Virus record (IMG/VR): IMGVR_UViG_3300043446_002076
Coordinates: 1-44,997 of that record
Length of the DNA: 44,997 nt
Strand: one strand, 5' to 3'
From: a virus
Each line of letters starts with the position of its first letter. The first letter of the stretch is position 1. Below, in pieces: positions 1-44,865 of this stretch. Under the pieces are notes generated by a model. That model ran no database searches. It saw only the letters and a program-made list of their open reading frames with translations, and was not told the DNA's origin. A program made the position numbers and the translations under genes.

Positions 1-1
1 T

Positions 2-529
2 TCAGCCATTGGTTCCCTCCAGCTCGGCGGCGATGGCGAGGAGTTTGCGCCGAGTTGCAGCTCGTTGGTCTTGCTCAAACCCATCCGGTGTGATGGAACC
101 AGTGCCGCCGGGTCGCATCCCTCGACGGAGGGAGATTTCCACCGGCACCACCTGATCAGCGACAGCGCGGAGGGCGGCGGCGATCGAGGGCAGGTAGTGC
201 CAGTCGTCGGGCTTCCCGCTGGCGGCTGCATTGAACGCCCAGAACACCTCCAGCGCTGCCGGCGACAGGTTGGCGATCCGTGCTGCTGGTGGCAGCACAG
301 CACGGCGCGCGGTCCTGGAGGGGCACAGCGACAGCCCCAGGTGGGTGAGGGCCTCCATGATCTCGTCGGCGCTACGTGTCCCGACGCTTTTGATCTGGAG
401 GAGGTCGCTGTAGGTGAAGCCGAGGAGGTCGCCAGCCGTTCGGACGGCTACACGGCGGAGCGCATTACTGGCCCTGGTGGAAAGGCCCATGTCCTCCACG
501 TTGGTTCTCAGCACGTCGGGATCAGCCAC
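2..529 (-). CDS. RNA polymerase alpha C-terminal-domain-like protein
   Basis: A 175-residue protein starting at a GTG that overlaps the stop of the upstream gene, with a GGAGGTGG ribosome site just before it. Residues 8-68 read like the alpha-CTD of bacterial RNA polymerase: a helix-hairpin-helix fold ending in HLGLSL. Aligned by eye with E. coli, R19, N22, G50 and S53 fall on R265, N268, G296 and S299, and K298 is replaced by R52, so the UP-element contact residues are mostly kept. Residues 75-175 match nothing I recognise. It has none of the alpha N-terminal assembly domain, so it cannot replace alpha. It may bind promoter DNA or host sigma or activator proteins. The last residues (TNG) come from the non-matching window tip; the copy at the right end ends in QP and overlaps the next gene by ATGA. 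Confidence 0.85.
   Translation of the reverse strand: MADPDVLRTNVEDMGLSTRASNALRRVAVRTAGDLLGFTYSDLLQIKSVGTRSADEIMEALTHLGLSLCPSRTARRAVLPPAARIANLSPAALEVFWAFNAAASGKPDDWHYLPSIAAALRAVADQVVPVEISLRRGMRPGGTGSITPDGFEQDQRAATRRKLLAIAAELEGTNG
15..140. repeat. Left copy of 126-bp terminal overlap
   Basis: Bases 15-140 are identical to 44872-44997. The alpha-CTD-like gene reads across this join in frame into the gene starting at 44865, so the repeat is best explained as the overlap of a circular assembly and not a biological duplication. Bases 1-14 differ from the sequence before 44872. Confidence 0.9.
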
Positions 530-977
530 GCTCCACCTCCTCCCGCAGCCACAACGAGCAGCCGTGCTGGCCTCGGGTGTCCAGCCACTCCGCCACAGCC
601 AGGATCGCGGCGCGGGCTTCGTCCGACCATTCCGCAATGGCTGAGGAGTGGAGTGGTTGACCACTATCCGTGGCGATGGCTTGCGCCACCCGCTCCATCA
701 GCCCACCGGCCGGGGCGGCGACCATTTTCTTGGCGTCAGGAAAATGGTCGGCGGCAGCCTCCAGCTTCACGATCCGAGCCCAGTTGCTCTCGTGCTGGGC
801 CTTGAGTCGATCCAGCTTGTCGTAGATCTCCTGGATGCAGGCTTTCTCCGTCTCGCGCTGGGCTTCCTGTACGGCAAGGCGGTCGCGGAGTTCGAGGATG
901 CAGGTATGAGTCCCCCCTCCGTCGGCGGCCCACCGCTGCTGCGTTGCCCACTGCTCCGGCGTTGCTTTGTGGGTCAT
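522..977 (-). CDS. Coiled-coil cyanophage small protein
   Basis: A 151-residue protein beginning MTHKATPEQW, an opening I associate with a protein family widespread in picocyanobacterial phages. The ATG at 977 is chosen over the longer frame because GGAGGTGGAG lies directly upstream and the start overlaps the stop of the preceding gene. Residues about 25-75 form a charged heptad-like helix that includes an LRDRLAVQE segment. The C-terminal part carries MERVAQAIA and a Trp-rich stretch, WLDTRGQHGCSLWLREE. Its stop overlaps the GTG of the alpha-CTD-like gene in a GTGGCTGA junction, so the two are probably translationally coupled. Function unknown. Confidence 0.8.
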   Translation of the reverse strand: MTHKATPEQWATQQRWAADGGGTHTCILELRDRLAVQEAQRETEKACIQEIYDKLDRLKAQHESNWARIVKLEAAADHFPDAKKMVAAPAGGLMERVAQAIATDSGQPLHSSAIAEWSDEARAAILAVAEWLDTRGQHGCSLWLREEVERG

Positions 978-1135
978 CGCTCCACCTCCCGCTGCTGCTG
1001 GCTCTGCTGCTCCAGCAGCCAGCGGGCCCAGCCCAGATGGGTCATCAGGGCATGGGTGCCTGGTGGTGCGGCATAGCCGGCAGCTGACCACCAGCTACGG
1101 AACAGCACCTCGAGTTCGGTGTCGGTGGGATTCAT
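974..1135 (-). CDS. Small Trp-rich hypothetical protein
   Basis: A 53-residue protein, MNPTDTELEVLFRSWW at its N-terminus, with a GTHALMTHLGWARWLLE core that resembles small proteins of cyanophages. A GGGAGG ribosome site lies 8 nt before the ATG. It overlaps both neighbours: its ATG shares bases with the stop of the upstream gene, and its TGA overlaps the next ATG. Function unknown; the position in a tightly coupled early operon supports it as a real gene. Confidence 0.75.
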   Translation of the reverse strand: MNPTDTELEVLFRSWWSAAGYAAPPGTHALMTHLGWARWLLEQQSQQQREVER

Positions 1136-44412: not shown

Positions 44413-44578
44413 CGGTCCGGCGACTGGAGCCTAGCGGTGCCAGGTCGATCAGCTCACGACCCCAGCGCCAGCGGCTCTTGCGGCTGGCGTCAGCTTCGGC
44501 CACCAGCCGCTCGACGTGCCGCTTCGACACGCCGAGGGCGTCGGCGGCTTCGGCAACGGTGAGGAGGATGCGTGCCAT
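44285..44578 (-). CDS. Excisionase-like HTH protein
   Basis: A 97-residue protein. Residues 4-45 are a MerR/excisionase-type HTH (LLTVAEAADALGVSKRHVER, then LVAEADASRKSRWRWG), followed by LIDLAPLGSSRRTVRVNL. The last 43 residues are antisense to integrase and Pro/Ala-rich, so the natural C-terminus may be poorly conserved. The ATG at 44578 shares its A with the upstream stop. Overlap with int on the opposite strand suggests antisense control. The excisionase role is inference. Confidence 0.7.
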   Translation of the reverse strand: MARILLTVAEAADALGVSKRHVERLVAEADASRKSRWRWGRELIDLAPLGSSRRTVRVNLAAVVPGLPAAPAPQLPPPGAAECAPGTSAHVALPCVP

Positions 44579-44865
44579 CACCGCTGCACGAACGACGCAC
44601 AGTCACGGGCAAAGGCCAAGCCTTCCACCAGCGGATCCGGGAATCCCAGGCTGCAGTGCCCGGGACCGGACCAGTGAATGCACCGCTCACAGCTGACCGT
44701 CCACCGGGGCAGCTCCGGCAGCCGGTCGGCATGGGTCTTGCCCTGACGGATGTAGCCGACTGCTGAGCGGTGGACGCCATGCCGCTGCGCCAGCACGCCA
44801 TGGGGTGCGGGGCTAGTGAGGATGTCCCGGATGGCATCGTCGCTGAGCTTGGTGGGACGCTTCAT
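44578..44865 (-). CDS. HTH/zinc-binding small protein
   Basis: A 95-residue protein. Residues 5-45 carry an HTH (KLSDDAIRDILTSPAPHGVL, then AQRHGVHRSAVGYIRQGKTH). Residues 59-90 carry four cysteines (CERCIHWSGPGHCSLG and CASF), a probable zinc site. The ATG overlaps the TGA of the alpha-CTD-like gene (ATGA at the circular junction), so the two are coupled. It is perhaps a regulator of the integration module; the target is unknown. Confidence 0.75.
   Translation of the reverse strand: MKRPTKLSDDAIRDILTSPAPHGVLAQRHGVHRSAVGYIRQGKTHADRLPELPRWTVSCERCIHWSGPGHCSLGFPDPLVEGLAFARDCASFVQR

Follow-up and report, generated by a model that had tools for sequence, protein, structure and literature searches.

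An RNA polymerase alpha-CTD without its N-terminal domain, joined to a helical phage module in a cyanosiphophage

The locus and the phage that carries it

The window, i.e. the whole 44,997-nucleotide stretch of IMG/VR record IMGVR_UViG_3300043446_002076, carries at its left edge a complete minus-strand ORF (529..2), which starts with GTG, stops with TGA at 4..2 and encodes a protein of 175 aa. This fusion gene comprises an RNA polymerase alpha-CTD (residues 5-68; 326..517), a linker delimited by DNA alignment (residues 69-87; 269..325) and a C-terminal phage module (residues 88-175; 5..268), all on the minus strand. Over the alpha-CTD part the GC content by codon position (0.64/0.51/0.83) has the same coding pattern as in the other genes, which the antisense frame does not share. 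The upstream gene (522..1091, minus strand) ends in CGTGGCTGA and overlaps the fusion gene by 8 bp, including its GTG start.

The window also contains genes for an integrase, a Gp157/Gam-like protein, an SSB, a ssDNA-annealing protein, a KilA-N protein, a terminase, a portal, a tape measure protein and an endolysin. The portal shares 54% identity with that of cyanophage KBS-S-2A and 53% with that of S-H1, the helicase is 43% identical to that of S-LBS1, and there is block synteny with S-LBS1; judged by its genes, the phage is a cyanosiphophage. The fusion gene stands at the distal end of the replication/recombination block, downstream of the Gp157 gene.

Sigma factors have been reported for S-LBS1 and S-CBS1/3 (PMC6157547). 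Of 27 searched, six related phages (S-LBS1, KBS-S-2A and four metagenomic records) have one, its gene lying either in the Gp157 region, as in S-LBS1, or elsewhere in the genome. In S-LBS1 it is an RpoD-like sigma factor that adjoins the Gp157 gene (L070:11690-12643). The first-pass annotation of the window had assumed a sigma-like protein in the same phage, which might then remodel the host polymerase twice. A sigma factor in this genome was rejected, as no PF04542 match was found in the window at E 1, tblastn with the S-LBS1 sigma factor gave no match there and PF04545 gave a single match of 13.7 bits, below threshold; the idea of a double remodelling is therefore unsupported here.

Identity and predicted fold of the alpha-CTD

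Residues 5-62 match the Pfam profile PF03118 (E 3.1e-14, 52.9 bits against a cut-off of 23.8 bits), and the fusion ORF is the only one in the 45-kb record to do so. The top PDB sequence match is the Synechococcus RNA polymerase alpha subunit (PDB code: 8syi; E 6.7e-14, residues 7-72). The domain shares 47% and 43% identity with two cyanobacterial alpha-CTDs (the former from S. elongatus), 44% with that of Mycobacterium and 33% with that of E. coli; the top cyanobacterial match (47%, 55 bits) leads that of Mycobacterium (44%, 39 bits) by a modest margin. Throughout the alignment, the E. coli residue numbers are higher by 246 than those of this domain. R19, N22, G50, S53 and E56 are identical to E. 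coli R265, N268, G296, S299 and E302, respectively, the first four exactly as the first-pass annotation had paired them; the R19-N22 stretch (464..475, minus strand), a DNA contact, and the G50-S53 stretch (371..382, minus strand) are thus placed by the alignment. Five of the seven main positions of the 265 determinant (R265, N268, C269, G296, K298, S299, E302) are identical and K298 is replaced by Arg (R52), which makes six of seven identical or conservatively replaced, while C269 is Ala. D259 of the sigma-facing surface is retained as D13; E261 is changed to Gly (Gln in the cyanobacterial sequences) and K291 to Gln.

The full-length AlphaFold model was poor over the alpha-CTD, its alignment having contained no alpha-CTD relatives, and yielded no match in a PDB fold search; only a separate AlphaFold2 model of the domain alone, aligned with six relatives, was therefore used for this part. 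This model (pLDDT 88.6) has the canonical alpha-CTD helices. Each of the 50 matches listed in its PDB fold search is either an alpha-CTD or an alpha subunit that aligns through this domain, and none is a repair HhH protein; the refuting outcome named in the first-pass annotation, a better superposition on a DNA-repair HhH protein, thus did not occur. The matches include 1z3e_B (TM-score 0.85/0.95, rmsd 0.9), the S. elongatus RpaA/alpha-CTD/DNA complexes 9dvt and 9dvu (9dvt_A, the alpha-CTD: TM 0.77/0.93, 48% identity) and 9zum, a Caulobacter alpha-CTD on AT-rich DNA. Identity as a DNA-repair HhH protein was rejected also by sequence, with Pfam yielding no HhH match at E 0.05 and LigA scoring 10.3 bits against 54 for rpoA, and an HHH_5 or ligase-type identity is excluded by the alpha-CTD sequence profile together with the listed fold matches. 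We regard it as near certain that residues 5-68 are an RNA polymerase alpha-CTD, which bears out the earlier assignment of residues 8-68 with a slightly longer extent.

The alpha N-terminal (dimerisation) domain is absent from the 175-aa ORF, the alpha-CTD having already been described as detached from the alpha N-terminus, and the NCBIfam rpoA models match through the CTD part only, far under their cut-off; the protein is not an RpoA. It resembles cyanobacterial RpoA in its profile, its fold and its 265 DNA-contact residues, and differs from it in being a fusion protein joined to a phage module and in the changes of E261, C269 and K291.

The C-terminal module and its junction with the alpha-CTD

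The C-terminal module, predicted to be helical (AlphaFold, pLDDT about 65-92), reads LSPAAxxVFWxFNxAASGKPDDWHYLPxIAAALRAxADQ ... LLAIAAELE. It matches about 60 viral loci, with 46-88% identity in the best-matching segment. Most of these are standalone genes, about 60-100 codons long, that begin with MxxLSPAA; the relatives have an ATG or GTG start of their own and lack an alpha-CTD. The GKPDDWHYLPxIAAALRA core is almost invariant across this family, and the window protein has both the FNxAASGKPDDWHYLPxIAAALRA core and the AELE end. Throughout the family (window 5-268, minus strand; L002-L061) the second half is variable next to the nearly invariant core, and the module is sometimes present in several copies per genome (three in L020). 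No Pfam or PHROG family covers residues 88-175, the PDB fold search found no solved structural relative of the module, the isolate phage records searched gave no member of the family, and a scan of bacterial genomes that depends on exact peptides found no copy. The first-pass annotation was right that the alpha-CTD is joined to a further part; this part, which it took to be unknown, is a helical module specific to phages.

None of the 42 module-bearing records has a PF03118 match above cut-off, the same alpha-CTD fusion is absent from the four named cyanophages, and scans of the collections, which use short peptides that distant cases could escape, found it nowhere else. Since the module usually has a gene to itself, the best view of the protein is that a domain was inserted into a member of a phage gene family. 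In contig 3300043446_002040 a homologue of the upstream gene ends with the same CGTGGCTGA stop/start overlap and is followed by the module without an alpha-CTD (MAEPLSPAAQ...), so that MADP-[alpha-CTD]-IANLSPAAL in the window stands against MAEPLSPAAQ at the same boundary. The linker R-I-A-N-LSP occupies the place of M-x-x-LSP in the standalone relatives, whose ATG is ATC here. In this relative only the module follows the shared gene boundary, and the simplest reading of the sequences is thus that a module gene received the alpha-CTD as an in-frame insertion close to its start. In another record (L006:105-540) an LSPAA start is fused to a protein homologous to that encoded at window 522-1091; modules are thus shuffled among the genes of this region.

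A 126-bp exact direct repeat is found at the end of the fusion gene (15..140) and at the right contig end (44872..44997), which suggests that the record closes on itself. The left copy is near-identical in contig 3300043446_002040, which shares 97% identity with window 1-181 and has an end-to-end self-overlap of 171 bp at 98.8%. Adjoining the right copy is a small gene (44578..44865, minus strand), the homologue of S-LBS1 A39, which in S-LBS1 shares a block with Gp157, A35 and A36; if the genome is closed through the repeat, this gene would come next after the fusion gene, the two overlapping in ATGA. Because of the terminal repeat, the self-overlap and the adjoining A39 homologue, both contigs seem to represent genomes, circular or permuted, that were opened at the repeat, and the C-terminal residues of the fusion protein would be either -GTNG or -GQP. 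The repeat common to the two contigs suggests exchange between two cyanophages.

Detached alpha-CTDs in phages and a possible role in trans

BFVD has nine viral proteins that match the alpha-CTD fold (E <= 0.001), the majority being small and bearing the name 'RNA polymerase, alpha subunit, C-terminal', and among isolates PF03118 is found in Bacillus phage vB_BmeM-Goe8 gp005 (210 aa, 4e-22) and Microbacterium phage Mazun gp26 (141 aa, 2e-13). The fusion protein, with PF03118 in a phage protein that has no alpha-NTD, belongs with these and with the detached alpha-CTDs of uncultured Caudovirales, which are likewise small and without alpha-NTD. In the Goe8 and Mazun proteins, however, the alpha-CTD is C-terminal behind unrelated N-terminal parts, whereas in the window it is N-terminal and the LSPAA module follows. 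The window protein is a new architecture within this class, which, as far as we found, is annotated but uncharacterised; a full-text literature search, with most subscription papers outside its coverage, found no paper on the function of a phage-encoded alpha-CTD. The 'phage' records retrieved by tblastn with the window protein were discarded because they are short or are contaminants: two carry the annotation bacterial RpoA, and another three have the sequence of RpoA chains. A Gordonia 'immunity repressor' (weak match, E 0.3) is not an alpha-CTD by Pfam.

Two viral contigs of 98 and 200 kb from metagenome 3300033463 encode proteins (L075:2296-3258 and L076:2296-3252) in which a single chain unites an alpha-CTD with an XRE-type HTH and sigma-70 region 4, each above its Pfam cut-off, and so combines two polymerase-recruiting parts. 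Like the window protein they have a phage alpha-CTD outside RpoA, and unlike it they share their chain with HTH_3 and Sigma70_r4. In a filamentous-phage-like contig (L077:1078-1371) a 98-aa alpha-CTD gene comes right after a G2P-type replication initiator, with a Zot-like gene downstream, and sits where the gene of an ssDNA-binding protein might be expected.

The host alpha subunit is acted upon by Rac of phiKMV-like phages (PMC7552054) and is ADP-ribosylated by T4 (review PMC2988021), both papers dealing with how the host subunit is cleaved or modified. The window protein would hit the same polymerase function, but as a mimic, whereas those systems are enzymes or their products.

We propose, at what we judge to be slightly better than even chances, that the fusion gene encodes a trans-acting alpha-CTD which competes at upstream DNA or for alpha-CTD partners. 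The observations behind this proposal are the domain identity, the predicted fold, the contact residues, the missing NTD, the module family and the gene order. The alpha-CTD was probably captured from the rpoA of a bacterium, likely a cyanobacterium, and inserted in frame near the start of the helical module gene. It would fold as it does in polymerase, the kept 265 determinant would contact A/T-rich DNA upstream of promoters in its minor groove and, in addition or instead, the domain may bind host proteins that dock on the alpha-CTD, such as sigma region 4 and activators. Having no alpha-NTD, the protein cannot join the polymerase core, and the free domain would thus be a competitor or decoy of the host alpha-CTD. 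The module is perhaps a tether or oligomeriser; if it binds another phage or host protein, the fusion protein could, instead of competing, be a tether that brings this partner to promoters. The regulatory effect may be repression or activation, two directions that the sequence does not tell apart.

We count in favour of a role in trans the PF03118 and PDB sequence matches, the listed fold matches, the 265 face, D13, the cyanosiphophage setting, the detached alpha-CTDs in phages of other hosts, the position of the gene by Gp157, where S-LBS1 keeps its sigma factor, and the attack of other phages on the alpha subunit. Against it we count that a single alpha-CTD binds DNA weakly, that the whole window has 64% GC and no promoter is tied to the protein, that E261 is Gly and K291 is Gln, that no homologue of the same architecture was found and that the gene sits at the contig edge.

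The fold could also serve as a generic DNA clamp in replication, recombination or DNA packing, without contact to the transcription machinery. The 265 determinant, which is the part retained, is the DNA-binding face, the fusion gene lies in a block with the SSB, the ssDNA-annealing protein, Gp157 and the helicase, and the alpha-CTD gene of the filamentous-phage-like contig is directly behind a replication initiator; nevertheless, sequence and fold are clearly those of an alpha-CTD and not of an HHH_5 or ligase-type domain, and D259 of the sigma-facing surface is likewise kept, so we consider a clamp unlikely, if worth keeping in mind. That the domain titrates alpha-CTD-binding regulators such as host RpaA, with no action on DNA, would agree with the match of the model to solved cyanobacterial alpha-CTD/RpaA/DNA complexes (9dvt, 48% identity), but such a sponge has no need for full retention of the DNA face and appears improbable. 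Quite improbable, too, is a neutral capture, i.e. a functionless in-frame insertion in one phage: the fusion is known from one genome only (0/42 module records, 0/4 named cyanophages) and the surrounding gene family is mosaic and often duplicated, yet a domain with no more than 47% identity to the compared alpha-CTDs has an open frame and nearly all DNA-contact residues intact, from which we infer purifying selection. An assembly chimera is very improbable, for although the contig end is a 126-bp repeat also present in another contig, the shared repeat reaches only window 1-181 (the last ~60 residues) and leaves the junction (269-325) outside, the junction and the module core are unique to this contig and in one open frame, the core has 74-84% DNA identity to its relatives and is identical to none, and the upstream gene boundary is the same as in the relative.

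A bolder extension, which we regard as improbable as it stands, is that a family of phage modules provides adaptors for grafted polymerase parts. An alpha-CTD on a phage tether would then target promoters as a free-standing factor and redirect the host polymerase, in the place of the sigma factor of the relatives.

If the fusion protein does act as a trans-acting alpha-CTD, host transcription may be disturbed or redirected by the free alpha-CTD of this virus of picocyanobacteria. A phage with its own free alpha-CTD would be a case of polymerase mimicry, unlike the known modification or cleavage of host alpha, and would add to the scant knowledge of host-transcription takeover by cyanosiphophages. 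The alpha-CTD class spans phages of several hosts, so that one biochemical study would provide a function for many unnamed genes.
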